From the NCBI GenBank assembly GCA_950295325.1, contig OX485805.1, positions 5,394,501 through 5,458,500 of the forward strand: a DNA stretch of 64,000 nt, written 5' to 3'. This DNA comes from Polytrichum commune. Lineage: Eukaryota > Streptophyta > Polytrichopsida > Polytrichales > Polytrichaceae. Below the pieces are notes generated by a model. It worked only from the letters and a program-made list of their open reading frames with translations, had not been told where the DNA came from and made no database searches. The translations under genes and the position numbers were made by a program. Shown here piece after piece: positions 30,974-62,801 of this stretch; positions within the stretch are counted from its first letter, which is position 1, and each line of letters opens with the position of its first letter.

Positions 30974-30996
30974 GGGTGGAAGTATGCTAGACCCTA
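30974..30996 (+). repeat. Left terminal inverted repeat of element E
   Basis: Identical, as reverse complement, to 62779-62801. Preceded by CTCT. Confidence 0.9.
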
Positions 30997-32096
30997 GTAC
31001 TTTTTGCGTCACAGTAAAGTATTTCAGCGAGTACCGTAGCTTTGTACTTAGGTAGAGCATGATGCTTCAATGTTTTTGCAGGTTTTGATCGGAGAATGGA
31101 ATAGGTAAGATGCCGAAGATCTTATTAGCATTGTTGAGAGGGTTTTAAAACTTAACTGCTCATGTTAATTTTGTACTTATGACAGCTTCACTTCATATGT
31201 CCCAAGTACAAAAAAAATGGAAAAGTACAGAAATATATGTTTGGAATTGCATGGATTTTGTTGCCGCTCATGGAGGAAATAGGAAATGGAATGGTCTTTT
31301 TAACACCATTAGAAGATTTGAAGCGGGGTTACATATTCGGTGTGAATCTGTATAATTAGTATTGTACTGTTGGCAGGGCGGAAATGTATGAAAAATTAAG
31401 ATTTTTGTCAATTCAAACGCGGATTTTGGGTATCCAAAGCTTGTTCTATGATGGCTAATCAAAGAATACGTGAAAAAAAAGTTTCCCCGCCATCTCATTT
31501 TATACATGCGATTGCGATCAATCTGTACAAAAAGTACTTGGAGTATATAATGTACAAAACTCTGGTAGATCTTGACCGTCCGTGTTGAGTATCGTTCATC
31601 TCCACCGTCAAATTCTTGCCCCTTGATCCTACATTCTAGGACACCAAGCACTGTCAACGGTTTCCTTGTGTCCTCCCTGCAACTTTGACAGCTCTTCCAG
31701 CTTGGAGAACCAGTCAACTGCGTGTCTTTCTTCTGCTTTGTCTTTCTTCTACATTGCTTTCGTATGCACAGCTTTGGGTCCAGACCATTGCCTTCCCTCA
31801 TTCACTCAACACACCCTTGTTTTTGCACCTTCATCTTCTACTAGGTTTTAGGTTCATACAATTGTAGGGGTTTCGTTTAGACAGAATGAGAGAGCTCGAA
31901 GGGTGGATTCGAACTGTATCAGCTCTCATCCCACAGAGGAGGCTCGAGCTCGTATTTTGCAGGATTGGAAAAAGCCCCTCACACATTTGGCATTAGCATT
32001 CGTATATTAAATGACCATGTTGTTCAACTTGTTCAGTAGGGAAGTCGATCTAACAGTGGGCTAGAAGAACTTTGAGAGGAATCGAGATTCAAGGAC

Positions 32097-32408
32097 ATGG
32101 ACAAACAATTCGGCCCTAGTGACAGAGAGAAGGCCACACTCAAAACATTATCCGTCAAAGAAGACGAAGTGGAACTATGGTGGGACAACCGGGAGCTGGA
32201 GAAGCATTTCCAATTCGGTGCAGATTTTTTCGGGTTGGAGACGCCCTTCGAGATTCACGTTGCCGAAGTGAACGCCAACATCTTAACTTCACTGCTCCTC
32301 ATCCGCATCGGCATAGAGCATGGACGGGAGCTGGCGCAAGATAAAGACATTTGGAACCGTGTTTTTGCAATGTTGTTCAATTTTTATATGAGTAAAGGGT
32401 TACATTGA
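32097..32408 (+). CDS. Small open frame in element E, unknown
   Basis: 103 codons from an ATG, beginning MDKQFGPSDREKATLKTL and ending FNFYMSKGLH. Rich in charged residues, with a helical middle (HVAEVNANILTSLLLIRIG). No family recognised. It lies between the left end of E and the transposase gene on the same strand and could be an accessory protein or a captured fragment. Confidence 0.4.
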   Translation: MDKQFGPSDREKATLKTLSVKEDEVELWWDNRELEKHFQFGADFFGLETPFEIHVAEVNANILTSLLLIRIGIEHGRELAQDKDIWNRVFAMLFNFYMSKGLH

Positions 32409-33152
32409 TTTCTTGTGGTACCTTCCCTTGTAAATGAGGTTCTGATTAGTTTTAGCATATTTTCGTGGTACCCATCGCAACTGCACAAAAGCTGTCAATG
32501 GTCTTGTTTCATTTCGTAACACGCATTTACTCTGATCTGGTTGAAGGATCTCGCATTTACTAAGTCACTGCAAGTATACTACGTAGTCTTTTGCAAATGA
32601 ACATTGTTAAAAAGCAACATTCCTCTACATCATATTGCACGTTTACAAATTCACATCGTGAAACAGTAAAAGTAACATACCTGTATGTTTCTCCACCTTG
32701 GCAGGTCAGAAATCCACAAGATTCGTGTATAAAGCGCAAAGTTTACATACTATTAAATATTGTCCACACGATCAATATTTATCAGCAACATCAACGTCCA
32801 GTGCTCATTTGAACACTGGACCCTCTTATCAATCCACACGGTATGGATTTTGGAGTTAATTGAGTATGTGCATGTGTACACGCAGTGAGTACGTACAGTG
32901 AGTACATTATCTGGTTCCGATAATCAAGATCCTATTTTTCAGGGGCGCCAATCCTAAGATGCCGCCGCCACTAGCAACCCCTTTGCCTCCATGTCGGCGC
33001 CGTCTTCTGAATCTCCCTTCCTCTTAGTGTAGTCGTTGTAATCTGCTGTATTGTCTATCTATTCGATCTCTCTTGGAATTCACCTATAGTTTGTGCATGG
33101 ACATTAAGCAATTCATTGCTAGATTATGCGATTTCTTCTTGTTTGCTAAACG

Positions 33153-33521
33153 ATGTCTAAGTCGAGGCAGCAGTCCCTTCTTGTCCAGAAACTGATTACG
33201 TCGTACTTCCCTTCAAGAGGCTTCCACACGGGATTGCTCTCCGCTAGTACTGAGTTAGACCCCCTTCTCTACACAATGGATAGCCAAACTAGTGACTCTT
33301 GTTACGTTTCTGAGACCCCGGTCTCTAAACAAGGGAACCGTGACTATTATCTAGGCAAATGCAACACCGTATCTGAAGAGTCTTCGAGGCGTGCACTATT
33401 TGCAACCGCAGTTTCTCTAGATCCCTATAGTAGCTACGATTACCTGCCTTCTCTATCTGATGTACAATTTTCCATAGGTTCCCCCACTAGTAGCAGCGAG
33501 TCGATTGCATTTAGGAGGTGA
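33153..33521 (+). CDS. Small open frame in element E with a PIP-box-like motif
   Basis: 122 codons from an ATG. Residues 12-19 are QKLITSYF, an exact match to the PCNA-interacting consensus Qxx(I/L/M)xx(F/Y)(F/Y), preceded by a basic start (MSKSRQQ). The rest is Ser/Thr/Asp-rich and probably disordered. It lies 150 bp upstream of the transposase frame; the stop is close to a possible donor (GGAG|GTGACA), but the phase does not fit a simple splice to 33672. It may be a separate protein. PCNA binding is inference from the motif alone. Confidence 0.4.
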   Translation: MSKSRQQSLLVQKLITSYFPSRGFHTGLLSASTELDPLLYTMDSQTSDSCYVSETPVSKQGNRDYYLGKCNTVSEESSRRALFATAVSLDPYSSYDYLPSLSDVQFSIGSPTSSSESIAFRR

Positions 33522-33673
33522 CAGGCGACTACATTTTGGTAAGTTGTTTCACATTTTTATGTAGACATGTTTAAATTGTTTCGTTTCCATCGCCTCCTTG
33601 ATCCTACTAGGCTCTAAAAGGCACCCTCTATGTACTCATCATTCTCATGTGCTGATATTTCACGGTGTTAGTT

Positions 33674-34450
33674 ATGGGGAATGCTGCAAAGAGGCAACGA
33701 GTGCGAGGGGGTGTTAGTCGGCCTGGTCCTGCAGCGAGGGCTGCTGCAGCAAGGATGGAGGAAAAGCAGAGAACTGTATCTAGAGAGATGGCGAGAGCAC
33801 GTGAGAGAGAGAGAGAGGAAGAGACACGAGGTCTAGCTTCGGAGCCTTTACACGATGGCACACCTGATCAAATGTCAGTGAGGGAGTTGAATCGGATCTC
33901 TTTGCGAATAGTGAAGTATATTGTTGGAGAGTTGAGGAGTTGTCCCGGTCCTTCAAGTAGAAGAGATGCTATTGAGAGGGTTATGAGGCATAACGCTTTT
34001 TGGCCTCTCTTACCTCTGTATTACCCTAGGCCTCAAGAGGCAAAGGTCACATATGGTTTCATAGAGAACTTTAAGAACGAATTGCAGTTGGTGAAGGTGG
34101 CAAACTCGAATGAGCGATTAGCAAGAAAGAGTGTTTTATTAGATGTTGCAGTAAGCTTGGGAGTTGATGGGGTGTCAGCATTGTCGCGTGTACTGGATAC
34201 TTCTGCATCTAGCATCAACATAGCCATGAATAGAAGAGTGTATGGGTTGAGTCCTGAAGAGATAGTGCCTCGGCTTCGCCTCAATCGTCAGAAGAGAGGA
34301 GGCTTGTCAGATTACGTCAAGCTGCAGATTGAGATATGGTGGAACAGACAAACCAAGGTTTCGCCAAATAAGAAGGATGTTGTTAAACACAGGGTAGGAC
34401 GAAATCTGTGGGTGGAGCCTCATCCTACGCACTACCTCTGCGAGACACAG
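33674..34450 (+). CDS. Element E transposase, exon A (N-terminal)
   Basis: Starts at ATG 33674 (MGNAAKRQRVRGGVSRPG), just after a possible acceptor GGTGTTAG, so an upstream exon is possible. It has a basic, nuclear-signal-like start, an Arg/Glu-rich helix (REMARAREREREEE), then a folded region with the phrases GFIENFKNELQLVKVANSNE and LSPEEIVPRLRLNR. It ends YLCETQ at a canonical donor (CAG|GTAAGA), phase 0. It precedes the Cys-rich and DDE-like part in the next exon and probably provides DNA binding. Confidence 0.65.
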
Positions 34451-35002
34451 GTAAGATCTTCCACCGAAGGTTACATATTGTACATTCATCATGTTCCTTG
34501 TATGCGGTTTATACCATAGAATACAAGGTCGTTAGTATCACCCCAATATATAGAGCGCTATGTACTTAATTTCTTACTAACGAAGGGTCGAATGTACTAA
34601 TGTGGGCAACAAGTAATGCCAATATACAAAGTGGTATTACTTGGTGTAGGAGATGTGTACATGAAATACTCTGCTTCCCGTTGGTTAGTACTGAGTTGGG
34701 ACTCCTCATATGTACTCTATACCGGAGATGTACAATAAGGATTAAATGTACGAACACTGAGACACTTTGTGTATATGTCGTACTCATCGGGTGTGGGAGT
34801 CGTCTATACTTAGTACATTCGGTGAGTGTGTTTGAAGTACCGTTGTATTTCTTGTACTGGATGTAATAACAAATCCAAGGATGTTGTACTTAATGAATAC
34901 TTTTGTATAAATTGTATTTCATTCAAAAAGGGTTGTACCGTGCTTTATTACTTTTAGTGTAATGAGTCTAACAATTTTGGAAACATTTGCACTGGTTGAC
35001 AG
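34451..35002 (+). other. Intron of the element E transposase
   Basis: Starts GTAAGATC and ends TTGACAG. Unusually rich in the tetramer GTAC (for example TATGTACTTAA and GTGTACATG), like the rest of E's non-coding DNA. The short frames inside it are not genes. Confidence 0.75.
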
Positions 35003-36519
35003 ACGACGTTCTTTTTGCGTTTTAAGGAGGCTCATCCAGAGTGCAACGTGCGCCAGAGAGCCTTTGAGAGGTTGAAACCATGGTGGGTTAGGAAATTGAA
35101 GGAATGAAACACCTGTTGTTGTATATACCACGTTGAGATGGACTTCATGAAGGTTGGATTGAGCCATCTCAAAGATCAACTAAGTGGGTTGCATTCAAGG
35201 ATCACGTGCAACTGCCAATGTCAAGTATGTAAGGGTGAGGTTGAAGGGACTTGCCATGCACACCAGGCAATTTACAAACGCATCACGATGATGTGGGAAT
35301 CTTGTGTGTGTCCGAAAGGAGAACTGGATGTGTGGCACAAACTTGATTGTCTCATGGGAGAGTGTCCAAATTGTGGCTTTCATTTATTTCCCCTTTGCCC
35401 TTTCGAGTTGTCTAGTACTAACTCCTTTCTTGTGAAGTGGAAGTGTTTTGAATACTATGAGGTTGGCGTTGATAAGAGGACTGGAAAGCCCAAGAAGCGG
35501 CTCAGAGAGGCTTTCAGGGATACCCCTGTGGAAGAATTTTTGTCCTACATGGGGAAAACAGTGTCCACGTTCATCACCCACAACTTCAGAGCTAGGTGGC
35601 AGGATGAGCAATGCCATTTGATGATGAAGAACGTCCCGGAGGGAGTACTTGTGTCACATATTGATTTCGCAGAAAATTATAGCTTTGCTATTCAGAATGA
35701 AGTGCAAAGTTTGTACTATTTCAGCACGTCCGTAACCATCCTAGTCCACATTACAATGTGGAAGGAAGGTGAAACCGTAATGAAGCAGACCCACTTTTAC
35801 ATATCGGACGACAAAGATCACGATTCTGCTTATGTCCAACATTGCTTGCTCTTGCATTGGGACTGGTTAGAGGACTCAGGATTTATTCCGGAGGAACATT
35901 GGGTGTATAGTGATGGTTGTAGTGCTCAGTTTAAATGTGCAATAGCTATGTACTTTGTGGCGAGATATCCCATGCTCACCAAGGGATGCAAGATGCGGTG
36001 GAACTATTTCGAGACTGCTCATGGGAAGGGAGAGTGGGACGGGGCCGGGGCGGTTGTGAAGAGGGCGCTGAGTGCGGAGCAAATTCAGAATCCTCTGAGG
36101 CCATTGGCGAATGCTGCACAAGTTGTCGACTTTCTACAGGAGAAGTACACCGAGCGGGTTCAGAGTTCCTACAAGCGGACAAAGATCAACACGGCTCCAC
36201 CCCTCTCTCGTGTATTCTGGCACATTGGAGAGAAGGAGGTCGTCCATAGTGACAGGAGCATCCGCTGCAACACTTTGCCAGGATCGAAATCTCTATATTC
36301 CATCATGGGCTTCTCTAAAACTGACCCTACTCTTCTCAGGACACGTGCTTTATCTTGTTTCTGTATACCATGCGTTGATGGTGATTGGGCTAATTGCTTG
36401 AACTTATCTCATGTGCAGGGCTGGAATGTTGAGAGGTTGGTTCCGGAGAGGGCTACTTCAGTGGCTGCACAGATGGAGGAAATCGACGATGAGGGTAACT
36501 GGGTGCATGATGGCGTGTC
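35003..36519 (+). pseudogene. Element E transposase, exon B with Cys-rich and DDE-like region, interrupted
   Basis: Joined in phase 0 (CETQ|TTFFLRFKEAHPECNV). An in-frame TGA stands at 35105-35107 (KLKE-stop-NTCCCIYHVEM). Then come a zinc-ligand-like cluster (CNCQCQVC, later CVCP and GECPNCGF) and RNase-H-like acidic motifs: HIDFAENYSF (Asp codon at 35663), YSDGCSAQFK (Asp codon at 35912) and ETAHGKGEWDGAG (about 36011-36045). I have seen this motif series in unannotated invertebrate proteins but cannot name the superfamily. The exon is broken at NWVHDGVS by element A and resumes at 39743. Confidence 0.7.
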
Positions 36520-36794
36520 CAGGGTTGTCTATCGCGACGTCATGACGGGGTCGTGCCGTCATGACGCGTCGTGTCGGGTCGGACCCCTCCGTCACGACAC
36601 AATAGGCTCCTCGTAGGGTTAAACTAGGGTCAACCTAGTAGGGTGGGTAAAATACTTACCTTCTTGCCAAGGTGGCGTCCTATGTGGCAAAAAATGCCGA
36701 CGTGGATGTGCATATTTCCCTTGGCATGTAAACCATTTTGCCATTGTGTTTACCATTTTGTTAAAATCAAAGTAATAAAATATTACTAAGGAGG

Positions 36795-37097
36795 GTGTAG
36801 GTCGGACGGGGGGAACGGGTGGGGAGCACGGGCGGACGTGTGGGAACGCGGGGGAACATGGGGTCGGATGGGGGTGAGGGTCGGGCGGGGGGAAGGGTCG
36901 GACGGGGAGGGAGGACGGGAAGGTAAGTGGGAACGGGGGGGGGGGCGGACGGGGGGGAACGCGGGGAGCGTGTGGGAACGTGGGGAGCGGGGGATGGGAG
37001 CGGGTTTAGGAGGTTTGGATAGGACGGGATGGATGGGAACGGGATCAGGGGAACGGGGGAAGGGAACGGGAGGGAGGACGGGGGGTCGGACGGGGGG
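36795..37097 (+). repeat. G-rich minisatellite, left part, element A
   Basis: Repeated GGTCGGACGGGG and GGGAACGGG phrases with many runs of three or more G. It continues at 39342-39510 beyond the LTR. Strong G-quadruplex potential on the plus strand. Open frames here are repeat artefacts. Confidence 0.9.
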
Positions 37098-39341
37098 TGT
37101 GAGGCCAAACCCCCCACCCTTAAGCGTCCGTAGTCCGAGTAGTGGGTTTGGGCTCACATTCCTCCGCGGTATTGGATTTGGACTTGGATGAGTCCATAGT
37201 ACAAGGTTCACCCTTCAAGTGGTCTTGGATTTAACTGGAATTTCACTTTTAACAACTCAATGTACGATTTCAATACGTATGTGGAGAATGCACAAGTTAA
37301 CTATGTTATTTTAACCTCCTTATGCTCGGGTGCTATTTTGTCTTTGTTTGCTTCTAACGTCCATCCGGCTGCTTTAGCTACACAAGCCCTTAAGGATATC
37401 CCTCTCCTAAATGGAGTCCGTGCCGTTGACTCTATACTACCACTTGAACTATCACTTGTGTATTCCGTATCGCTACTATAAGAGGTCTCACTTGGTGTCT
37501 CCATACCGTACATAAGCCTTTAAGTATTAAGAAATACTTATGTGACTTATGTCAATCTCTCCCTCGCACCTTTGGTCTTTGCTTCCTTTGTCTTGCCATC
37601 GCGAGAGTGCTCTACATTCTCCATTAAGTTGTGCACGTGGTTTATTTTTAAAGAGAGGATGCAAGTGTTAAAAAAACACTATTCTCTATAGTCAATCTCA
37701 AATACATTTACTTGTGAAAGCCACACATAACACTAACTAGCATAATGTAACTAACTACTTGTCTATGAGCTAATTAGGTAGGCTATCTACTAAGCTCCTT
37801 CATGAACCCATCTCTTTACTTTCTAATTACATAAACCTAGCTCCTTCATAAACCCAGCTCCTTCATAAACCCAGCTCCTTCATGAACCCAGCTTCTTAGC
37901 TTCTAACTAAACAAACCCAGCTCCTTCATAAACCCAGCTCCTTCATGAACCCAGCTCCTTAGCTTCTAACTAAACAAACCCAGGTCCTTCATAAACCCAG
38001 CTCTTTACTTTCTAACTAAACAAACCCAGCTCCTTCATAAACCCAGCTCCTTCATAAACCCAGCTCCTTAGCTTCTAACTAAACAAACCCAGCTCCTTCA
38101 TAAACCCAGCTCCTTCATGAACCCACAACTTTGTAGTTGTAATCCCCAACTACCTCACTAATTATTCAAGCCCTTAACTAATTTTCCTACCTAATTTCCC
38201 TAATTCTACTAACAACCCCTTTCTAATCACACAATTCTTCTCTAATCCTAAAATCCTAAAATCCTAGAGAGGAGAGGGGGAGAGAGAATTTCCTAACTTC
38301 ACTAAGACTAACTAATCCACACAAGTATATTTTTGCACTCATCACAACATCAAGTGCTCAACTCTTAAACATGGAACTTGCAACCACGTGTATTCAAAAC
38401 ATGAACTTAAAGTACCACAAATTGGAATCATGAATTAACTTTAAAATCCTTCACGTCAACACTAATTCTACCAAGAGGTCAAGCCCTCTTCAAGGCTAAC
38501 AAGCCTTGGCTCTCAAACTAAAAACTAAGCACACACATGTGCTCCAATATGGCTTCCCACACCCACACTTATAACTCGTGGGGTGCCTTGGAGCACAAAG
38601 GAAAGAGAGGATGAGTGAGAGAAGAATGAGGGATTATATAGTAAGCTTGAGGGGGTGAGCACCCTCAAGGCTCACGATAAGCCCTTGAGATTTCCTCCTA
38701 CTTAGTAGGCGCCAATCCTATCTTCTAAGTCTTCCTCCCTCAAATGATCAACAAGGATCCTAATTCGAACATTTAACTAGCCTTGGCTTTCTACCTACCA
38801 CACTTTACCAAACTTGGGATGCTTCAACCCAAACTTAGCCTCCTTCGCTTTCCGCCGCCATAACTTTCTCCCCTTACTTTCCCAAATCGTCGCTCACCAC
38901 TTAATTCAAACCACGATGCTTAACTCGTGATTTGATTGGTGCTTTGAGAATTTGCTTATCCTCCACCTTGCATTCTTCCTTGGGCCTTCCCCATTAAGTG
39001 GCCATGATGAGGTGGTCCACTTGTGCGCTCCATGTGATCCTCCATTCATCCCAATTCGAATGCACTTGCCTCTTGAGTCACTTTGGTTGTCTCCATCCAT
39101 TTGTACTAGCCTACTCACTAACTACTCAATCCAAGTTCTCCTTACCTATCCTCATTCACTCAAATCCTTCCGAAGGTAAAAACACAATAACAACTCACAT
39201 CCTAGCCTCTTACAACATGGTACTTCTAAGACTAACATTTCACTCTTTTTATATTTTTGTGAAGTAACATGCTACTTCAAAGTGCATCAACTAACGTTTC
39301 AGGGGTCTAAGACTAAATGTGGGCACCCTTTTGGGCTCACA
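37098..39341 (+). mobile_element. Probable solo LTR (2.2 kb) inside element A
   Basis: Begins TGTGAGGCCAAACCC and ends TTGGGCTCACA, with five or six G on both sides consistent with a GGGGG duplication of the minisatellite target. Ends are shared with the segment at 24236-25858. The interior is pyrimidine-rich and non-coding, has a TATA-like TTATATAGTA near 38634, and contains repeats at 37800-38130. Frames at 38906-39267 have no domain. Confidence 0.72.
37800..38130 (+). repeat. Composite tandem repeat within the solo LTR
   Basis: The phrase ACCCAGCTCCTTCATAA recurs many times, interspersed with several copies of TTCTAACTAAACAAACCC, giving an irregular higher-order pattern of about 60-100 bp. 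Non-coding. Confidence 0.85.
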
Positions 39342-39510
39342 GGGGGGAGGGTCGGACGGGAAAAGGGAGGACAAGAAAAGGTCGGACGGGGGGGTCGGAC
39401 AGGAGGGAACGTAGGGAACGGGTTAGGGAACGGGTTAGGGAACATGTTAATGGGCTAAGGGAGTGGGGTTAGGGTACGGGGAACGGGGGCGGACGGGAGG
39501 GCGGACGGGT
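39342..39510 (+). repeat. G-rich minisatellite, right part, element A
   Basis: Continuation of the array on the other side of the LTR, with GGTCGGACGGG and GGGAACGGGTTAGGGAACG phrases. Confidence 0.85.
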
Positions 39511-39742
39511 GCTAGTAATTTTATTCCCCACTTTACCTCTACTTTGCTGACATGTCATCACACGTGGACATCGTAACTCCTACGTGTCCGCAATGGGGTA
39601 ATGTAAATACACAAAAATTCGGTAAAATTCAAGTCCGGCAGGATAAAGACATCATCCGTCATAATGTCGTGACGGATACGTGTCGTGACGGCACGACATT
39701 ATGTCGGGATTACCCTCCGTCACGACACAATAGACAACCCTT

Positions 39743-40151
39743 GGCGTGTCATTGGAATTAGGAGACTTGGTTGAGGTTGGCGATAATTTCATGATACCTG
39801 CAGAAGAGGAGAATGAAGACGGCGTGGATTTTTACATTTTGCAGTGCACAAGATCTAAGTTCGAGGTACAGGGGCCTCTAGATTGTCCATGGGGGGGGCG
39901 TCTTTGCCGTTGGGGATGAAGTCATTAGGGCGAAATACTTCAAGAAGCACGGTCGTGGGGATAAAACCTACTTATTTTGCAATGAAGCTGTAGAGGCACA
40001 TGTCAACGCACATCTCGTCAGGGCGTGCAAATTCCCCATGGTTCTCGCTTCCCATAGGGCCAAGGGCTCCCCAGTGTACAAGATGTCCAGCGAGACCATG
40101 AGAGTATGCAAAGATGCTTTGCGCGATTGGTGGGCATTCCATGAGGAGTAA
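39743..40151 (+). pseudogene. Element E transposase, C-terminal end after element A
   Basis: The TSD GGCGTGTC (39743-39750) repeats the last bases before A, so precise removal of A would restore the frame (GVS then LELGDLVEVGDNFMIP). At 39891-39898 a run of eight G has one base too many for the frame. Beyond it the shifted frame is protein-like (FAVGDEVIRAKYFKKH, then SPVYKMSSETMRVCKD) to the TAA at 40149-40151. This C-terminal portion resembles a small cysteine-poor beta-rich domain, not identified. Confidence 0.65.
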
Positions 40152-40680: not shown

Positions 40681-41612
40681 TTAAGTGCCACGGCGCTTCT
40701 TCCGCTTCTTTGCCTGTGTGGGCGGTTGAAGCTTCTCTTGTGACCTTGTCATCACTCTACCTAATCCAGCTGGCGACTTTGAAGGGGCTTGATGACCTTC
40801 ACTTTCCGGCACATTTTTGACCGCCTTCATCTTTTTCTTCACAGGTGACTTCTCCGATGTCTTCTCAGCTGTCTTCTCCGGTGTTTTGAAGATCCTATCC
40901 TCCGCTGCTTCTCTTATGTCGTCTCCGGCCTCAACAGTTGGCGTCCCATCTTTCTTCTTTGGATTGCGCCCCTCCAAACACTCCGAACCAGGAACCTCCA
41001 CTGTTGCTGTTTTCTTCCATTGGTCCTCCCCAGCATCATTTGTCTTCAGGGACTCATCCAGGCTCACCATCGTCGGAGCTACAATCTCTTGGACCGAAGC
41101 GTTGGCATGATCATCTTGAGCAACCTTCACTCTCAGCGGCTTTTGTGGGCTTATAAACTGTGGGTCATAAGACTTTAGAGTAAGGAACTTCACAACATCC
41201 TCCTCTTCCATGTCTTCCCCATCTGCATCTTCACGCTCCTTGGAATCCACAGACTTCTCACCTTCAGAGTCTCCTTCCTCCGCATTTGAGTGAGTCGTTC
41301 CAGAAGATGATGGCAACTTCAGGTTCATTCCCTGATCGTCATCGCTGGATGACTCATCTCCACTGAGAAGGTCAGGCTCATTACCCTTCCCTCTCACCGC
41401 ACCCGTCTCCAAACATTCATAGAGGACCTCATCCGTCTTTCGTAATTTTTTTATTCTGTTGTTCTCTTTGTGAACCCCTCCCTTGCGGGTCACGTCCTTC
41501 ACAGTGCCTTGCAAAGGGTCTAGCGGCGCAGCAGCAGAGATTGTCGGGCCACCTACGGGAGAGCTTGTTGCTCGACTCGCGTCACCCTCAGTAAAATTTG
41601 ATGGGAAATGCC
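40681..41612 (-). CDS. Element E RING gene, exon 3 (charged C-terminal tail)
   Basis: Minus strand, from acceptor GATTTCAG at 41613 to the TAA at 40681. It completes the codon left by exon 2 (CPNG|G then HFPSNFTEGDASRA), phase 1. The content is disordered and highly charged: an acid stretch (SEGEKSVDSKEREDADGEDM), a middle part with VKFLTLKSYDPQFISPQKP, and a basic end with KSPVKKKMKAVK and KKRKKRRGT, which look like nuclear localisation signals. Element B (17.7 kb) sits in the intron before it. Confidence 0.65.
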
Positions 41613-42194
41613 CTGAAATCCACAGATCCCCACAACAATTGCTTAGAATTGTGCACTCAATCAAAAAGAAGACAGTACTTCTACAATATGAAGTACAACT
41701 AGGGGGTGCAGACATTAGTTCGAATAATACTAAACGATCATACTTCATGCACCCATGAACAATACCATAAGTACATAAGCTCAAATAAGTCTTACCTCAG
41801 AAATAAGTCTTGCCTCAGAGTATACAATGCGTACAAAAGCAGAGTGTTTGTAACCTGAGTATAGGATGCACGTGGAGTACATGAAGAAAGTACCTAAGCA
41901 TTAGTGAACATAAATAACAAGCAGGGTTGTCTATCGCGACGTCATGACGGTGTCGTGCCGTCATGTCGTGTCGTGTCGTGACGGACCCCTCCGTCACGAC
42001 ACAATAGGGTCCACGTAGGGTCAACATAGGGGGAACGGACTAGGGTGGGTAAAATACTTACCTTCTTGCCAAGGTGGCGTCCTATGTGGCAGAAAACGCC
42101 GACGTGGTCGTGGATATGCCTAGCACCAGGTAAATCATTTTGCCATTTTGTTCACCATTTTGTTAAAATCAAAGTAGTAAAATACGACTAAGGA

Positions 42195-42551
42195 GGGTGT
42201 GGGGCGGACGGGCGTGGGGGGGGGGGGAACGGAGCGGACGGGGTCGGGAACGGGGGCGGGAACGGGGGCGGACGGGGGGAACGGGAGCGGACGGGGGGGG
42301 GGGAACGGGGCGGACGGGAGCGGACGGAGGGGGGGGAAATTTTTTTTTAAAAAATGGGGCGGACGGGGAAGGGGGGGGGAAAAAAAAAAAATTGGGGCGG
42401 ACGGGGGAGCGGACGGAGGGGCGGACGGGGGGGAACGGGGCGGACGGGGTTGGGAACGGGGCGGACGGGGGGGAACGGGAGCGGACGGAGGGGGGGGGGA
42501 TTTTTTTTAAAAAAAATGGGGTGGACGGGGAAGGGGGGGGGGGAAATTATT

Positions 42552-42582
<31 letters not shown>

Positions 42583-52700: not shown

Positions 52701-52718
52701 CAAATTTTTATATTGCAG

Positions 52719-53215
52719 AAGAAAGAAGAGGCCCACTTTGTGAGATTATTGAAGTCGCTGGAGTCAAGCCCTGGTCTTTACTTCTCTTACAATAGAGATT
52801 TGACTTTAAAGTAAGTTCATGCCTCTGACAAAATTGGAAGCTTACTATGAAAGAAGTCTATTCTTTCTAGTTCAGTTCATCTATTACTTGTGTATTCAAT
52901 GTCTAAACCATGCATTTGACTGTGGCGGAGGCTTCAAAAGATCACAGAAGGGTCCACGCCTGTTATTGAGTCAAGTCTCAATTTGAAGAGGCGTCTGAGG
53001 TTAGAAATGTCCATGTCTCATTTGGCTGTTATTATTCATGATTGGCATGTCAATTCTTTTTGTATATTTGTTTGCTTAGAATAGCTTCGTTTCTCTGAAG
53101 TTCTAAAATTCACAAACTATGCTCAATTTCAAGTGCAGGGAGATGTGAAGATGTTGGGGGAAGCACTCCTCTCTGGAATCATATACAATTACCTGGCTTG
53201 ATTAAGAGGCTCTCA
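52719..53215 (+). pseudogene. Captured fragment of a SAC-type phosphoinositide phosphatase gene
   Basis: After ATATTGCAG, 52719-52810 reads KKEEAHFVRLLKSLESSPGL then YFSYNRDLTL, and after an intron with GT..AG borders 52931-52999 continues in phase (KLQKITEGSTPVIESSLNLK, RRLR). The phrase PGLYFSY..DLTL.LQ is characteristic of the SAC domain of plant SAC1-like lipid phosphatases. A third piece near 53147-53215 includes STPLWNHIQLPGLIKRLS. The catalytic CX5R motif is absent, so this is a partial copy with host introns retained, as in CACTA transduplications. Confidence 0.55.
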
Positions 53216-53684
53216 GTAAGACTTCATCACTGTACTGGGGATGGTTTTTGACTTATTTGAGATGTGTGTGTGTGTGTTGTATTTATGTTCCTCCTATGTA
53301 AAATAGGTTAAGGGAGGAATGAGATGTAGAAGTCTGTTTGGAGGAATTTATTTAATTACATTGTTGGGAGCAGGCGGAGGGAAAGTATCTGTGGAAGAAG
53401 ACATTGCTGGAGGACCTGATTCAAAAGAGAGTAAGGCCCTTGACTATCATGTGGACTCGTTATTTTTCATAGTCTTAGAGTGTGTACTTGACTTTAAACA
53501 TGTACATGGGTGGCATGCGACATGTCTCTATTTGAGAATATGAAGATGTTCCATATATTAGAAACGGTCAAACCTTATTTAGGATTTAGTGGAAGTTTGG
53601 TGAAATCTAAGCCCTAAACTAGACTATGCCAACTTTTGTAGCAATGGAAGGTAATTGGAATGATCTATATGTATGCAGTCAAAA

Positions 53685-55412
53685 ATGGAGGAAAGGAGAC
53701 TCCCCATCAACAATAAGAGAAGGCAACAACTGCGAGATGACAGGCTATGGAAAAGGGAACAACAGAGGGCTGCATTGTACAATTTGAAACGCATTCATTG
53801 TCCATGCTCCAAGTGCAAGGGACGTGTTCAGTGCTCGTTGGCAAAGGTCAAGGACCACCTCATCCAATATGGTAGAGAACCCACATATAGAGTATGGAGA
53901 GGGCCAGGTGACAGAGACTCGTCTGACGAAGAGTGGGAAGAAGAGTTCAAGAGACCTTGTATAAGTCATGATGATGGGAAATTGGATGCGGGTTTGGATG
54001 TGCGCTCAATGGTGGAAGATGCATTTCAAGGAATAGACAGAAGTCCACAGCCATTGGAAGAAACAATGGAAGAAATCGTCATGGATGCATTTACTATTGT
54101 GGATGACCTACAAGATGGAGCGAATGATGACTCCGGTGAAGAAGAGAATGAAGAACCATTGGGGGACGAAGGCATTGAGCGTGACGTGGACAATGATCCA
54201 CATGAACTAGAGGATGCAATTCAAGAATTGTATGCTGGTGCGAAGTCATCCATATTGGCTGCAACAATTTTAATCATGACGCTGTGCACAATTCATGGAG
54301 TGAGCAACAAGTTTGCCGATCAATTGTTCGCTCTATTCCGCCTACACCTTCTTCCTGGTGAGAACCGGTTGCCCAAGAATTACCATGCTGCCAAGTCAAT
54401 GATCAGGAAGTTGGGATTAAATTACAACACCATCCACGCATGTGAAGGAGGATGTGTGTTATTTAGAGGGCCTTATGAGAATGACATTTGTTGTCCTAAG
54501 TGCAATAAACCCCGGTACAAAGACAACGAAAAAAAAAAAATACCACGCAAAGTCCTTAGACATTTCCCACTGATACCCAGATTGAAACGTATGTTTCGAA
54601 CACCTGCGATTTCCGAGCTCATGGTCTGGCATTCGCACAATAGGAGCACAGACGGTATGGTTAGACATCCTTGTGACTCGAAGGCATGGAAACATGTTCA
54701 TGAAAAGGTAGATCCTACATTTGGCGAAGATGAACGTAATGTGCATATGGGACTTGCTGCAGATGGTGTGAATCCCTTCAAGCTTCAACGTTCAACCTGG
54801 TCTACGTGGCCAGTGTTGTTGCTTAATTACAACATACCTCCATGGTTGACAACCAAGAATTTTTTTGTTATGTTGGCCTTACTTATTCCTGGAAAACAAT
54901 CAGTTACTGCACAATATTTTGACGTGTATTTGGCACCATTAGTTGAAGAATTGCAACAACTATGGGAAGGGGTGTTAGCATATGATGTGCTGAAGGAGAT
55001 AGGGTTTAGGACATTTAGATTGAGAGCAATCCTATTATGGACAATCCACGACTTTCCTGGGTATGGGACAGTAGCGGGGGTTGCACACCAAGGCTATGTT
55101 GCGTGCCCAGTGTGTGGGCCGGATTTTAGGGCTGAGCATTCCACTGAGCTTGGGAAACAAACATATACAGACACCCGAAGATGGCTTCCACATGATGACC
55201 CTTGGAGATCTGCCGGTATGAAGGATCACTTCAACGGCCGCATAGAAGAACGAGGGCCTCCCACAGTTGTCACTGCAGAAGAGCAACTAGAACGGGCAGT
55301 TCATTACCAAGAATGGCTACGAAAAGGAAACAAGGATGGCAGCGATGGGGATCCCTCAAAAATACATGGTGTCAAAAGAAGAAGCATTCTTCATGATTTG
55401 CCATACTGGAAG
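53685..55412 (+). CDS. CACTA transposase (tnp2), exon 1
   Basis: ATG at 53685 (MEERRLPINNKRRQQLRDDR), 11 bases after a possible acceptor TATGCAG, so a leader exon is likely. A transposase-associated zinc region comes first (HCPCSKCKGRVQCSLAKVKD, HLIQYG), then an acidic linker, then the tnp2 (Transposase_21) core: LLPGENRLPKNYHAAK, YENDICCPKCNKPRY, VDPTFGEDERNVHMGLAADG, LNYNIPPWLTTKNFFVMLAL, LLWTIHDFPGYGTVAG and YVACPVC. Ends HDLPYWK|GTACTC, phase 0. With exons 2 and 3 it makes 1119 residues without a stop, close to full length for this family. Confidence 0.9.
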
Positions 55413-55598
55413 GTACTCACATCTATATTCCCGATGTAAAAGTCAAGAAAACACTATGCTAATCATTCAATCCAAGAACAAGGAGTGCATTATATGAACT
55501 AGTGCGTCATATTGCTGTAGACATGCATTTCAATTCTGCCAGTACTTGTCTTGATTTAATTATGGCTCTTAATGTTTGTTATGTTGTTTTGGTGTCAG

Positions 55599-56497
55599 GA
55601 GCTTCTTATTCGATACACTTTGGATGTTATGCATTGTGAACAAAATCTATCGAAGAACATTTTGAAAACCATTACTGGACACAAGGATACTGTGAAAGTT
55701 AGACGTGATCTACAACGTAGGGGGATCAGGAAGCACCTGTGGCTCACTAATAATCCTAAAAAACCGGGTAAAATGTTAAAACCTGCAGCCCCATATGTAA
55801 TGACTAATGAGGAGTTTGATATTTTTGCTAGCACTATTGAATCGTTGAAGACACCTTCATGCCACATATCAAACATCTCTCCATACATACGAAAGAAGAA
55901 TTTTGGAGCACTAAAGTCACATGACTATCATGTGCTTATGCAACAAATATTGCCGTTAGCGCTAAGGGGTTTGTTACAACCGGGGCCGAGAATGGCAGTG
56001 ATGCGGATTTCTAAGGTATTTCGGAGGATATGCAACAAAGTGTGGAATCCACTTGAGTTTCAGGGTCTTCGTGTGGACGTTGCGCGGAGTATGGCACTCT
56101 TAGAGATGCACTTCCCTCCGTCATTTTTTGATATTATGACTCACTTGGTGTATCACCTTGTAGACGAATTGGACTTGTGTGGACCTGTTTCAACAAGATG
56201 GATGTACCCTGTTGAGAGGTACATGAAAACACTGAAGCACTATGTCCGCAATATGGCAAGACCTGAGGCTTCCATGGCAGAGGGGTATGTGAAGGATGAA
56301 TGCCTTGGTTTCATAACAGAATACTTGCAGAGGTTTGAGGTTGTCGACCGACGAGTTTGGGATGCAGATGAAGAATACGGAGATGCCGAGGAGGTACTTG
56401 AGGGGGCAGGGGCAAATTATCTCTTGACTCCTCCTTTGAGAGAACTTGCTCATCAATATGTTTTAACAAACATAGCCCTCCTCGAACCTTGGCATAG
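55599..56497 (+). CDS. CACTA transposase (tnp2), exon 2
   Basis: After GGTGTCAG in phase 0: ELLIRYTLDVMHCEQNLSKN, the conserved (H/T)LDVMH motif of tnp2. It continues with SHDYHVLMQQILPLALRGLL and the DUF4218-like region (FPPSFFDIMTHLVYHLVDEL, WMYPVERYMKTLKHYVRNMA, EGYVKDECLGFITEYL). Ends LEPWH at CATAG|GTGGGT in phase 2. No stops. Confidence 0.9.
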
Positions 56498-56636
56498 GTG
56501 GGTATGGAGCATTGCAGTCAATGTTTGGTCATTTGTTAGTGGATCATGTTTGTGGTATGACTGTAATATGATTAAATAATGAGTACTCGATGATTGCCAT
56601 ACAAGCCATATACTAATGTAAACATGTTGTGTTCAG

Positions 56637-57369
56637 GCAATGGAGGGATGAACATCAGTTGAATCCCGACATCGCAACATTTGATGTTTGGGTTAGAAGC
56701 GCAGTGCACAACCATCCACATGATCCCAGCAACAGTGACGACATTGATAGGATTTTGTTGTGCAGTAGGCCATCGCAAAAAGCAACACGGTACACGAGGA
56801 TGCGTGCATTTGGGAACCACTTTCGAGTGGCGGATTCGCAATCCGCATTGTTACAAACATACGACAGTGGAATTGCTTCTATATTTGAAATGCCAACAGG
56901 AGATTCTCAAACCGAGGTATCACTAAATTATGTGGGAGTGCTACAAGATATTTTGAAGTTGGATTATGGTCCATTGCGGACTCCAGTAATTCTTTTTCGA
57001 TGCGAATGGCTCAAAAGGGAAGACAATCGCGGAAATCCAACTTACGTACGGGATGATGCCGGTTTCATGGTGGTAAATTCTCGGCACAAACTACCTAAGA
57101 TGTCGGAGCCATTTATTTTCCCAAGCCAAGCTACACAAGTATTTTTCTCCAATGATTTGAGAAAACCAGGTTGGAAGGTAGTGTTGCGAAAGGAAGCGCG
57201 ATCAAAAAGAGAAGAACAAGACACAACTAATGTTTTCATTACAACTACTGTAGAAGTTCAGGGCATGAGCGCTCCAAACTGTGTGCCTCCACCTCCAAGT
57301 ATTGCCTCTCTAGTGGGGGCCATCGAATTATCAGATGTCGATAATTTGTTGGCAATCGCAAAGTTTTAA
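56637..57369 (+). CDS. CACTA transposase (tnp2), exon 3
   Basis: After TGTTCAG it completes the Arg codon (R|QWRDEHQLNPDIATF) and carries a DUF4216-like region: TRMRAFGNHFRVADSQSALL, LKLDYGPLRTPVILFRCEWL and PFIFPSQATQVFFSND. TAA at 57367-57369. The C-terminal extension is typical of plant CACTA transposases. Confidence 0.88.
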
Positions 57370-57936
57370 AGTACGCATGATATTTTGTTATGAATCATGC
57401 ACTTGTGTCATTTTTCTATTTATTCAATGTATGCCACATTTACAAACGCGACAGAACAATGATTCCCAAATAGCTAGCATAAGGTGTAGGGTATAGGGGG
57501 TATTATGCCACCTCAGCTTATTAAACCTCACAGAGTCGTTGAGGTTGGAATACTAGTCATTCTTTTGACACGTCACTACTGTCCATCATAATGTCAACTC
57601 CATACATCAGTATTTTCCACGTCGTAAAAGAATGGTATTAGTAAGTAATAGTAGATATGTAGTCGTTAAATACCAACCAGATAATGACTAATAATTAGCC
57701 AGGTCATGATATTCTATCCACGTCATACACTCCCGGATGGAGTGGATGATACATGATAGACAGAAAATGATTATGTTGTAAGGTCTTCAACAGAGTTCAT
57801 CATTAGCCATTCAAATGACTAAACAATGACTCAATTGTTGACCACATCACAGATGGTGAGTTGGGTAGGTGTCACAGTCATTCAATGAGTTGTTTAGGAC
57901 AATGAGTCATTCATACCATGGTTGGAATGGACAAGG

Positions 57937-57948
57937 ATTCTTCTAGTG
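57937..57948 (-). repeat. Right terminal inverted repeat of CACTA element D
   Basis: ATTCTTCTAGTG on the plus strand, followed by the GAG duplication. Confidence 0.92.
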
Positions 57949-57994
57949 GAGCCTCCGTACTGAAGTGCAAGAGAGTCATCCATGTTGATCACCT

Positions 57995-58440
57995 TTGAGA
58001 GTTTCTGTCCGTAATTATCCAAGTGATGATAGTAACCGAATCACAAATACCGAATTGTGGCTAGAAAGGATATTGTTGAAGTTTCAATACAGTGAAGAAG
58101 AGAGTGACATGTGTAAGGGAGAACTCTTGGAATTTACAGAAACACTTCGACATGAGTGTGAGAACAAAACATATTTGAGGCTTGGCGCATATATGGTAGC
58201 AATTTGGAATGGCACACAAATTGGCCTAAACTTATGCAACTTTGGAAAAAAATTATACTCATTTCATCAAGTATAGCTATTTGTGAGAGAGGATTTTCCA
58301 AACAAAATGCATACAAAAGCCACTTGCGCAATAGGTTGAACTTGAAGACCCTTGATGCTCTTATGCGGGTTTCTCTTTGTGGGCTTGAAGTGGATGCAAT
58401 GGATTGGGCTACCATCTTCAACATTTGGAGAAACATGTGA
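57995..58440 (+). pseudogene. hAT transposase C-terminal remnant (element C)
   Basis: Two overlapping plus-strand frames carry the end of a hAT transposase. The second ends with WPKLMQLWKKIILISSSIAI, then CERGFSKQNAYKSHLRNRL, LKTLDALMRVSLCGLE and DWATIFNIWRNM, which is the hAT C-terminal dimerisation region (ERGFS..N..K...RN.L...LD.LMR). A one-base shift near 58220 separates it from the upstream frame (TELWLERILLKFQYSEEE, then LGAYMVAIWNG). The N-terminal zinc finger and catalytic core are absent. Confidence 0.8.
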
Positions 58441-58677
58441 GCCCGAAGGATACTTACGCTTGATAGTTTTTTTTTTGTTACAAATCAAGTTTGTTTTCTA
58501 TTATTCAAAATTTTAGTTTTCTAAAATATTGTGTAAGCCAAAAATTGAGGTGACATTTTGGGATAAATTGTAGATGTCAATTGACATTCATTTTTGTTTT
58601 TGAAAACGTCACGTGACACTTTGGATTTGAGGTTGAACGTCACATGAAATTTGTCAAACATACACACTGGGGGGAGG

Positions 58678-59398
58678 GGGGGAGGAATTTTTTTTTTTAA
58701 AAATGGGGCGGACGGGGAAGGGGGGTAAAAAAATTAAAAAAAAAATTAAAACTGGGGCGGACGGGGGAGCGGACGGAGGGGGGGGAAATTTTTTAAAAAA
58801 AAATGGGGCGGACGGGGGAGCGGACGGGGGGGGGGGGGGAACGGGGCGCGGACGGGGGGGGACAGGGGGGGATGGGGCGCGGACGGGGGGGAACGGGGCG
58901 CGGACGGGGTTGGGAACGGGGCGGACGGGGTTGGGAACGGGGCGGACGGGGTCGGGAACGGGGTGGACGGGGTCGGGAACGGGGCGGACGGGGTCGGGAA
59001 CGGGGCGGACGGGGTCGGGAACGGGGCGGACGGGGTCGGGAACGGGGCGGACGGGGTCGGGAACGGGGCGGACGGGGGGGGGGGAACTTTTTTTTTTAAA
59101 TAGGGCGGACGGGGAAGGGGAAAAAAAAAAAAAAAAAAAAAAAAACTGGGGCGGACGGGGGAGCGGACGGAGGGGCGGACGGGGGGGAACGGGAGCGGAC
59201 GGAGGGGGGGGAAATTTTTTTATAAAAAATGGGGCGGACGGGGAAGGGGAAAAAAAATTTAAAATTAAATAAAATTTAAAAAAATGGGGCGGACGGGGGA
59301 GCGGACGGAGGGGCGGACGGGGGGGAACGGGGCGTACGGGGTTGGGAACGGAGCGGACGGGGTCGGGAACAGGGGCGGACGGGGGGGCGGATGGGCTC
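58678..59398 (+). repeat. G-rich minisatellite, right part, element B, with 21-bp tandem core
   Basis: Contains about eight near-perfect tandem copies of a 21-bp unit, GGAACGGGGCGGACGGGGTC plus G, between about 58910 and 59075. Long A runs interrupt it (59118-59146). Glycine-rich open frames here, such as 58703-59272, are translations of the repeat and not genes. Confidence 0.9.
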
Positions 59399-59636
59399 TA
59401 GTAAATTTTTCCCCACTTTACCTTTACTTTGCTGACATGTCATCACACGTGGACATTGTAAATCCTACGTGTCTGAATTGGGTTAATGTAATTACACAAA
59501 AAAATCGGTAAAATTCAAGTCCGTCAGGATAAAGACAACATCCGGCATAATGTCGTGACGGATACGTGTCGTGACGGCACGACATTATGCTGGGATTACC
59601 CTCCGTCACGACACAATAGACAACCCTGATAACAAG

Positions 59637-59830: not shown

Positions 59831-60295
59831 AGTAATTCCTAAGTATACTCGACTTCTAATCTCACATTGTATACTACAGCTACTTGTGAGGTAGATAGTC
59901 AATGTACACGAATAATACTAAACCTTTAACCTAGTCAGTATGTGGAGATTTTTGGAGTACTATAAGTATATTGCATAGAGATCGATTTTCCATCCAGCTC
60001 ACACGTTACTACTCTAGACATTGTGAATACGTAATCGTTCGCAGTGGACAACACGAATCACGTTGACAGTCGTACTTGTTACTACTCTCGAGAGACACGT
60101 ACTTTAAACGTTGTGCAGTGCACCGTCTTGAGACTAATCATTCTACTGAAATATATCGTTAGCATACCTTTAAAATACAAAATGAAGACCTAACATACTT
60201 ATGGTATATTCAGATTCATTCATTAGAGACCGAACCATACTCTTATGTACTAATTAATTAGCAAGAACATATAGACTCTAGACTAGAAAACTTAC

Positions 60296-61100
60296 CACCA
60301 TTTGGACAAGTTGCTTTCGCTTCCTCCATCCTTAGTTGCAAGGTTTTCCTCTGCTCCTCGGCACATCCAAGCATCTCGGCCATCTGGAGCATCTCAGCGC
60401 TAGGCTCTCCCCACCCAAAACTCTTATGCCACTCTGGATGTGGCAAATTTTGGCACCCCTTAGCAATACATTTACCTCCATGTACAAATACAACCGACGC
60501 ACAATAGGGATGATACAAGTGCCTACAAGATGATACAATAATGTCACTGTTAGGAAACGGAAATTGACACAGTGAACAAGTGGAAATCTCCAGAAATCCA
60601 CTCCGATCTGAAATCCCTGCACCCTTCTCCTCTAAGTAAACCATGGGCCGTGGCCAGAAGGACCCCAAAGTCTTTCCTTTCTGCAACTCTAACAACTCCG
60701 CCTTCAATGCCTTGTATTGTAAGCGATGGGCCTCAATTCCATGTGCCATGTTGACCACCACCGACTCTGCCCATTCCAACTCTGCCCTTAAGGCCAACAG
60801 CCTAGTCTGTTCTGAAGCTAATTGCTCCATTATGCCCTCCATCTTGATTTTCTCCCGGTCAACATCACCTCCCTCACCCAGCATGGCATCAATCTTCAAC
60901 CCCTTCTCCACCTTCTGGTTCTCGTAGCTCTCGAGGAGACATTGTGACTGCTCCACCTTTAACTTACACCGATCCCTCCTCTGAAAGGCCTCCTTCTCTC
61001 GCACTATGTCCGCCTCCGTCTCCACCGATAATACGGTAATCAACTCTTGAACCTCCCTGCCCTTCTCCTTCACCGATTCTGCACAGTTCAAGTTCAATCT
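60296..61100 (-). CDS. Element E RING gene, exon 2: coiled coil plus RING-H2-like finger
   Basis: From acceptor CTATTAG (RLNLNCAESVKEKGREVQEL) to donor GGTG|GTAAGT, phase 1. The first two thirds form a long coiled coil (REKEAFQRRDRCKLKVEQSQ, EQLASEQTRLLALRAELEWA). A zinc finger follows: CSLCQFPFPNSDIIVSSCRH, LYHPYC, then KCIAKGC, that is C-x2-C, C-x-H-x2-H-x2-C and C-x4-C, a RING-H2-like pattern. Then HPEWHKSFGWGEPSAE and another helix. Such a protein could be a ubiquitin ligase or a structural DNA-complex component; the role in E is unknown. Confidence 0.7.
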
Positions 61101-61201
61101 CTAATAGATTAATGCATAAAATTCAATAAGTTAAAAAAATGGAAAGATCAACAAAAATCCAACATGTAGACAGATCAAGAGGATGGAAAGGCTGAATTTA
61201 C

Positions 61202-62066
61202 CATGAGTCCAACATCCACCTCTGCGTGCATATTCTGTACCACCTTCAACACAGACCCCTGATCCCATGCCAGACTCGAACAGTCCACCACAATCCGATG
61301 TTTCACCGAGCCTTGACTTCGTCCTCCCCTCTTCCCCCATTCTATCTCCCCTCCTGACCCCTGAACTCCATGTCGGACTTTCCCCACGCACCCCTGGCTC
61401 TACCTTTATTTTTGCCCACTCTCTACCCCGAACCTCTAGAGGCTTATCCCCCTCAAGCGTCTTCCTCAACGCCAACAACTTCTGGACACTTTGCTCATAG
61501 CGATTCACTTGCCTCTTGTTAGTGTCAGCCCCAAAGGCACACCAATCTACTTTCCCTTTCCCCTCATCAAACTCAACTGCAACACCCTCGGCAAAATGTA
61601 TCTTCAAGTAAGGAGGGATCTCACTCGGTGGATGTTGGTAGAGAATTGGGTGTAGGTATTGAATCCTCTTCACCACCCCTGCGTCTTTGCACCCTGCCCA
61701 CCCGTAGCCTTGGCGTCCACCATCGCCATATGGTTCTCCAAACATTTCCTTCAACAAACCAGGAGACACTCTTCCTTTCCGAAATTGATGTGGGTTGTCG
61801 CCATCGCTTGCAAGGGTCGGGTACTCATGCTGAAAATCTTCGCGTGTCAAAGCTCGCGGTGGTTGCCTTAACCTGGCGATCTCTGCATCCACCTGGTCAA
61901 TCCTCTCTATCCTGGGCTTTGACGTCTTCTTCGGCGCGGGACGTCTTCGATGTACAGCCCTGTCATCAGAGTTGTCAATCTCCTCAAATTGACTATCTCC
62001 CGTGCTTCCTCGCGCCTTGCGACCGCTGTGAGTGCTCCCCGAATGTCGTCCAACAGAACCCTCCAT
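61202..62066 (-). CDS. Element E RING gene, exon 1, with a suspected frameshift
   Basis: The first ATG in frame is at 62066 (MEGSVGRHSGSTHSGRKARG); the frame is open slightly upstream. It is basic at the start (RRRPAPKKTSKPRIERIDQV), then a folded region (HPILYQHPPSEIPPYLKIHF, VEFDEGKGKVDWCAFGADTN). Near 61320-61390, a G-rich stretch, the reading moves to another frame, which gives KHRIVVDCSSLAWDQGSVLK and VVQNMHAEVDVGLM and reaches the donor ATG|GTAAAT in phase 0, matching exon 2. The original frame would not splice in phase, so one base has probably been gained or lost. Confidence 0.6.
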
Positions 62067-62102
62067 TCTCTTCAATCCGTTGTCGCCCTCCGCCTTCAAT
62101 GC

Positions 62103-62200
62103 AGCTCACAGCGTAGCAATAATGTCCTCCTCAATCCCTAAACCCTAAAACCCTAAACCCCAAAGCTCACAGCGTAGCAATAATCTCCTCCTCAATCCCG
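62103..62200 (-). repeat. Duplicated leader sequence of the E RING gene, with telo-box motifs
   Basis: The phrase AGCTCACAGCGTAGCAATAA, followed by TCTCCTCCTCAATCCC, occurs twice, 62 bp apart. Between the copies lie CCCTAAACCCTAAAACCCTA repeats, i.e. telo-box motifs common in plant promoters and leaders. Upstream of the gene's ATG at 62066. Confidence 0.75.
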
Positions 62201-62778
62201 GTCGTTAGCAGCCGAAGACGATGGACTCTCACAACGAGGAAGAAGACGACCGCCGGTGATCACCCGTTGGTGATGGTGAGGAACTGGTGATCACCGGTCA
62301 TCACCAAATATGAACTCCAGTCAACTGGCAACCACCAGCGATTGGGCCGTCCACCGGCAGTAACCAGTTATTCCTCACTGTCGACCTGTAGTCACCGGTT
62401 ACCACAAGCAAAATGTAACATCTTATCCTCTGATGACCGGTCCATTCAGTGGCCAACGAGTAATTACATATTAGCCTATGAACATGCCTTTTTTTTGGCC
62501 CTGTTCGAACACGTGTCAAGGCGTGAGTGGCTGCCATAATAGTGGAGTTAGGTGGCCTCAACAGCCGAGCCAAAAGTCCCATGTACTACTCCAAATAAAG
62601 CCATTTTTTTTCGCTGCCACCTTTTGTAAGACAGCCCCTTCTCCATTGGAGGATTCAGATCCGCCAACTTCCACCCTCGATCTCAAATGCGTGGCAAAAT
62701 TAGAAACCCGAAGCCAATAGTGAGTACATGTGAGTACTTTTGTGTAGTTATAGTACCCCTGAATTTAATACAAGTATA

Positions 62779-62801
62779 TAGGGTCTAGCATACTTCCACC
62801 C
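62779..62801 (-). repeat. Right terminal inverted repeat of element E
   Basis: Reads TAGGGTCTAGCATACTTCC then ACCC on the plus strand and pairs base for base with the left end. Followed by CTCT and then TCACATAG, which matches the host repeat. Confidence 0.9.

Follow-up and report, generated by a model that had tools for sequence, protein, structure and literature searches.

Does a RING-finger gene that lies convergent to a transposase belong to the transposon, and to what kind of transposon would it then belong? The question is raised by element E, a structure in a 64,000-nucleotide stretch of the moss Polytrichum commune genome (GenBank assembly GCA_950295325.1, contig OX485805.1, positions 5,394,501 to 5,458,500 of the forward strand; C3:5394501-5458500 in the coordinates used below), which we call the window. 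A sequence-only reading had described E as a DNA transposon with 23-bp terminal inverted repeats (TIRs), a 4-5 bp target duplication, a DDE-like protein and a convergent coiled-coil plus RING-H2-like gene. The two TIRs indeed match at all 23 positions, each with the sequence GGGTGGAAGTATGCTAGACCCTA, and lie about 31.8 kb apart; a target site duplication (TSD) is likewise present, although it is exactly 4 bp (CTCT on both sides) rather than 4-5 bp. The interval they enclose is a single DNA transposon that was afterwards invaded by two hAT-like elements, one of which harbours a CACTA element, and the 31.8-kb span arises because these later insertions inflate its length: without them, E measures 10,883 bp (~10.9 kb). 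The copy in the window is decayed and dead. We consider it probable that E, now decayed, belongs to a large two-gene, cut-and-paste, Sola-like family whose TIRs begin with GGG and whose RING protein acts for the element.

A search of the genome (407.8 Mb in 64 contigs, of which C1 to C7 sum to about 406 Mb and therefore represent seven large chromosomes) revealed a second full-length copy of E at C1:61538785-61549832. This copy 2 spans 11,048 bp, is ~98% identical to E throughout, and is flanked by its own 4-bp duplication, ACCT, in surrounding DNA that does not align with the window flanks. Full copies with differing flanks at two places indicate that E inserted at two sites. Both hAT-like insertion sites are empty in copy 2, where transposase and RING gene converge as they do in E and are each ~97–98% identical to their counterparts there. 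Copy 2 lacks the in-frame TGA found in the window and its C-terminal transposase frame is open. Its own defects are an insert of ~240 bp after YSDG and a RING exon interrupted by a stop, and, like E, it is dead today. With up to 3 mismatches allowed, five matches to the E-type TIR exist in 408 Mb: E and copy 2 account for two each, and the fifth is a lone end (C5:894810, locus L119) whose interior, compared by eye, is unlike that of E beyond about 27 bp, and which is either a remnant or a different element sharing the same end. With so few matches, and with both genes present in copy 2, we reject chance as an explanation of the structure of E. The census showed no short derivatives that have two E-type ends and lack the genes. 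The TIR of a related subfamily, GGGTAGAAGCACGCTAA, was found at nine places with at most 1 mismatch, each ending a locus with both genes, and three pairs of these ends bound 8.5-kb elements; at 2 mismatches there are 21 further matches, which we did not count, a reversed control giving 22 in all.

The pairing of the two genes recurs across the genome. Searched independently, and with match lists that are lower bounds, the transposase has at least 74 related loci and the RING gene at least 60 matches, representing at least 59 loci. At 48 of the 74 listed transposase loci, a RING relative follows downstream in the opposite orientation at a distance of no more than 40 kb (no more than 10 kb at 40 of these), and among neighbour pairs of listed loci 49 of 50 are convergent downstream and the other is upstream with both genes on one strand. 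When loci were placed at random in 1000 trials, a mean of 0.2 pairs and at most 3 arose, against 48 observed, which rules out chance as the cause of the pairing. The 48 pairs count near-identical copies separately and include two adjacent transposase loci that share one RING locus; judged from transposase identity, and not computed, there are roughly eight or nine independent subfamilies. The convergent position of the RING gene is kept beside transposases that are just about 40% identical to that of E, and match scores of the two genes show a weak rank correlation (0.41–0.45 in 41–42 hand-picked pairs). Both genes lie inside terminal repeats in seven elements: E, copy 2, C3:30635013-30643520, C4:34114559-34123065, C6:28499408-28507948, C4_1853 and C6_10568. 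Perfect TIRs measured among the elements are 23, 17 and 26 bp long, the last in C6_10568, and the two ends of C4_1853 differ at two or three bases. Every two-gene element whose flanks were read (5/5) has a 4-bp duplication: CTCT in E, ACCT in copy 2, ATAA in the C3 element, ATGT in C4_1853 and CTAT in C6_10568.

Three sets of observations weigh against a fixed two-gene family. Such a RING partner is missing at 26 of the 74 listed transposase loci, many of them short fragments; 12 of the 59 listed RING loci are the nearest partner of no transposase; and the transposase at C4_18817 counts among the 48 through a partner 32.6 kb away, yet no RING relative lies between its TIRs, a 22-bp pair flanked by unlike 4 bp with no target duplication. 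Judged by the refuting pattern that the sequence-only reading had named (TIR copies that lack both genes while the genes occur outside such TIRs), the evidence falls mostly on the side of that reading: the pairing recurs genome-wide, with the lone TIR end and these unpaired loci as exceptions. Its view of E as a DNA transposon in which a DDE/D-type transposase gene faces a convergent RING gene is supported.

Between the diverged elements at C3:30637519 and C5:50883033, the ratio of nonsynonymous to synonymous substitution rates (dN/dS) over 466 codons of the RING gene is 0.122 (0.102 in the N-terminal part, 0.129 in the coil and 0.106 in the RING), and over 451 codons of the transposase it is 0.148. 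Selection therefore keeps both genes, as estimated from this single pair. In the separate tail exon constraint is weaker, with a dN/dS of 0.53 between the C3 element and C4_1853. E and copy 2 differ at few positions, with dN/dS values of 0.385 for part of the transposase and 0.297 for the RING exon; in the tail exon, 12 changes alter an amino acid and 2 are silent. This substitution pattern fits decay.

What does the second gene encode? It is present on the minus strand, convergent with the transposase as the sequence-only reading had proposed; its exon borders in E are drawn from open frames alone, so that the three exons of that reading are putative. In the relatives C3_30637, C5_50883, C6_10568 and C4_21382, a single open frame of 498–565 residues combines the N-terminal domain, coiled coil and RING, while a separate downstream frame ends with a basic tail in several elements; this tail may be a nuclear signal. 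All eight zinc ligands (C3H2C3), plus a Trp that follows them, are identical across the six RING regions compared, two of which come from proteins 87% alike. The Pfam profile zf-RING_2 matches four of the six regions with E-values of 3.4e-4 to 5.1e-3, all below the curated cut-off of 27.3 bits (21.3 bits for E; 20.7, 17.5 and 20.2 bits for relatives), and two relatives have no zf-RING_2 match: C6_10568 gives just a weaker RING-like Pfam row (0.06) and C4_21382 no RING row. In an AlphaFold model of the C3 RING protein, the helical N-terminal domain and the coiled coil are predicted with confidence and the RING part with low confidence. The best Foldseek row is a RING finger (2ep4, E-value 0.61); the structural neighbours listed for the protein model are coiled coils with no RING among them, which we do not count as contrary evidence. 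We infer that the protein is a ubiquitin ligase. At a further locus, near the RING relative of C4_24439, a frame at L110:2093-2968 (+) has a C3HC4-type match (zf-C3HC4_3, E-value 3.9e-5, below its cut-off) and might represent either an additional exon or a second gene.

In the mechanism that we propose, the transposase would bind the TIRs and excise and insert the element through a 4-bp staggered cut. The RING protein, with its helical N-terminal domain, coiled coil, RING-H2-like domain and basic tail, would enter the nucleus, dimerise, and serve the element there as a RING E3 ubiquitin ligase, most likely by removing a host factor that limits transposition or by tuning turnover of the transposase or transpososome after strand transfer. 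This guess is modelled on RAG1, the nearest parallel, whose RING is a ubiquitin ligase (PMC4411706). Going further, we tentatively suggest as a possibility that a cut-and-paste transposon lineage has retained a RING ubiquitin ligase of its own, encoded by a separate second gene under selection, in subfamilies whose transposases are just ~40% identical, and that the lineage exploits host ubiquitin to regulate its transposition or to eliminate a host silencing factor, a solution arrived at independently of RAG1. The protein might instead be no ubiquitin ligase but a structural accessory whose zinc domain and coiled coil help to assemble or target the transposase complex, as do the second proteins of other two-gene transposons. 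The final C-x4-C ligand pair, which we take to be unusual for an active RING, is in keeping with such a role, as are the Pfam RING scores below cut-off, the long predicted coiled coil and the basic tail in several relatives. The invariance of all eight ligands in 6/6 proteins argues against it, and the additional C3HC4-type match at one locus, itself under cut-off, would fit a ubiquitin role, so that we regard a purely structural protein as rather doubtful.

The transposase of E is split into pieces of 259, about 505 and about 135 amino acids, and the motifs HIDFAENYSF, YSDGCSAQFK and HGKGEWDGAG noted in the sequence-only reading were all found in the open frame 35108-36616. In an alignment of 15 family members, D186 is conserved in 14 and both D269 and D311 in all 15. 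Structure prediction for the 35003-36519 product, a step which that reading had recommended, yielded a model of the part after the stop that predicts an RNase H-like fold for the catalytic domain, with the three Asp residues as a D-D-D triad. The gene is disrupted in three ways in E, by the TGA at 35105-35107, by the hAT-like insert at 36520 and by a C-terminal frame change. No convincing match was obtained in Pfam for the E sequence or the 15 family members, or in PDB for the E sequence or the 15-member profile, and viral contigs contained no relative of the transposase by protein search or by a longer DFAENY pattern. Sixty-one viral loci carry the HGKGxxDGxG DNA pattern and none matches the transposase by tblastn; a DF[AST]ENY-type pattern occurs in four prokaryote contigs and one viral contig, all judged by eye to be chance.

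The sequence-only reading could not place E in a known plant superfamily, a view that we revise, as the features of the family fit Sola. Sola elements have DDD transposases, 4-bp TSDs and variable TIRs and are present in the moss Physcomitrella (PMC10741241), for which Sola1 is listed (PMC9033089). The E family likewise occurs in a moss and has 4-bp duplications in five elements, three conserved Asp residues with a predicted RNase H-like fold, and TIRs whose three measured lengths fall within the reported 11–1124 bp; we make the placement by these features alone. The Sola2 elements of slime moulds encode an 888-amino-acid transposase, close to the combined length of the E pieces, and their extra gene is Fanzor1 (PMC3627910), in contrast to the conserved convergent RING/coiled-coil gene of the E family. 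No RING gene is reported for Sola in the literature searched, mostly titles and abstracts. Could the family be a separate, undescribed superfamily with a 4-bp TSD and a DDD transposase? The lack of convincing Pfam matches for the 15 members and of a PDB match for their profile, the failure of the initial reading to place E, and the GGG termini and RING gene, which the excerpted Sola descriptions do not mention, would all suit that view. We nevertheless consider it unlikely, since the DDD triad, 4-bp TSD, TIR length, size and moss occurrence match Sola descriptions (PMC10741241, PMC9033089) and Sola is already divided into three distinct subgroups (PMC4455052).

Identity of E with CACTA/EnSpm was rejected, as there is no Transposase_21-type Pfam hit and an hhalign comparison with the nested CACTA transposase gave a probability of 0.03 of 100. 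CACTA elements, MULEs and other plant DNA transposons have TIRs and sometimes more than one gene, and CACTA elements duplicate 3 bp of target, against 4 bp in E. MULEs duplicate 7–12 bp (PMC10741241). The 4-bp TSD of E excludes superfamilies with other TSD lengths, the lengths compared being mostly general knowledge. That the RING gene is a captured host passenger, of use to neither transposon nor host, is very improbable: some DNA transposons, MULEs above all, do pick up host gene fragments (PMC6446971), and the nested CACTA element carries a NIF-phosphatase open reading frame (ORF), but the gene holds an identical convergent position beside transposases just about 40% identical to that of E and, in the pair measured, is under purifying selection equal in strength to that on the transposase, and a passenger would not stay under such selection.

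RING fingers inside other transposable-element proteins are already known, in Chapaev/RAG1, one MULE and some long terminal repeat (LTR) elements. Chapaev and RAG1 resemble E in that a RING finger is tied to a transposase-type recombinase; there the RING is inside the transposase protein, whereas in E it is a separate gene on the opposite strand. A C3HC4 RING finger is listed for the oomycete MULE 37_Pi (PMC6446971), and RING fingers also occur in ORFs of Osvaldo/Isis-like and Pao LTR elements of a fly (PMC3630058), in these cases within the transposase or LTR-element protein and not as a separate conserved second gene; PMC8086355 names RING fingers in its reference list only. Helitrons also encode enzymes of the ubiquitin system, the deubiquitinase domains VTD and OTU (PMC9741609), and differ from E in being rolling-circle elements whose domain has the opposite activity and lies inside the main protein. 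Within the literature searched, a separate RING second gene in fixed position across a DNA-transposon family and under selection appears to be new. RAG1 is a recombinase of transposase origin that carries a ubiquitin ligase, yet it is a difficult system in which to test what a RING contributes to a transposon. A plant family that has open copies and a RING gene standing alone and under selection would allow tests in moss of whether the element needs its own E3 and what that E3 marks. The finding also calls for caution in gene annotation, as a group of RING-like genes here lies next to transposases in mobile elements.

Table 1. Features of element E and its nested insertions (window coordinates)
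Feature	Position	Strand	Basis or remark
Left target site duplication CTCT	30970..30973	.	flank sequence
Left TIR, 23 bp	30974..30996	+	23/23 vs right end
Transposase exon 1 (259 aa)	33674..34450	+	open frame, GT at 34451; tblastn match in 9/9 oriented elements incl. copy 2
Transposase intron GT..AG	34451..35002	+	inferred from sequence
Transposase exon 2, catalytic domain	35003..36519	+	open frame; in-frame TGA 35105-35107
HIDFAENYSF	35657..35686	+	first predicted catalytic Asp, residue 186 of 35108 frame
YSDGCSAQFK	35906..35935	+	second predicted catalytic Asp, 269
HGKGEWDGAG	36020..36049	+	third predicted catalytic Asp, 311
hAT-like insert 1, within transposase coding sequence	36520..39742	.	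8-bp TSD GGCGTGTC and CAGGG ends, from which alone the label is taken; last base inferred
Transposase C-terminal part	39751..40151	+	frame broken in E, open in copy 2
Open frame with RING-gene C-terminal exon	40681..41796	-	acidic, then Lys-rich tail ..KKRKKRRGT
hAT-like insert 2, between RING-gene exons	41922..59628	.	8-bp TSD ATAACAAG; another copy of the hAT-like element
CACTA (EnSpm) element nested in insert 2	42650..58669	.	CAGTG termini; Transposase_21 5.5e-65, DUF4218, DUF4216
RING gene, coiled-coil plus RING exon	60258..61100	-	open frame, weak Pfam match
RING-H2-like motif C-x2-C ... C-x-H-x2-H-x2-C ... C-x4-C	60453..60578	-	8 ligands invariant in 6/6 proteins
RING gene N-terminal conserved domain exon(s) from MEGSVGRHS	61131..62066	-	3' limit uncertain; tblastn match in 5/9 oriented elements incl. 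copy 2
Right TIR, 23 bp	62779..62801	-	23/23 vs left end
Right target site duplication CTCT	62802..62805	.	flank sequence

Small ORFs were also observed upstream of the transposase. In one subfamily, a 153-aa ORF (L109:3702-4160, -) contains QTLITDFF, a PIP-box-like sequence; it is conserved, with at least 18 match rows genome-wide (17 with E-values below 1e-19 and one at 0.004), and 14 of the 18 listed matches lie within 4 kb upstream of a transposase locus. This ORF, with its PCNA-binding-like motif, may be a third conserved component in that subfamily. In 7 of 10 regions scanned, no plus-strand ORF of at least 100 aa has a PIP-box-like motif. In E itself, a 122-aa ORF (33153-33518, +) contains QKLITSYF and has no relatives in the genome besides the two E copies.

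Other features of the window lie within the nested insertions or outside E. The nested CACTA element contains an ORF with a NIF/FCP1-like phosphatase domain (45177-46910, -; E-value 9.2e-10), and the hAT-like elements carry G-rich CGGACGGGG arrays at 36800-37100, 39340-39520, 42200-42640 and 58660-59390. To the right of E is an ORF for a LINE-type endonuclease (63105-63845, +; Exo_endo_phos_2, E-value 5.1e-7). A kinase-NBS-LRR receptor gene occupies 14899-20707 (+), with protein kinase, NB-ARC and long leucine-rich repeat (LRR) regions in consecutive open frames; this receptor type is linked to mosses and, together with the seven large chromosomes, fits a bryophyte, probably a moss. Another kinase plus NB-ARC-like stretch, identified by eye, adjoins the transposase at C4_18817.

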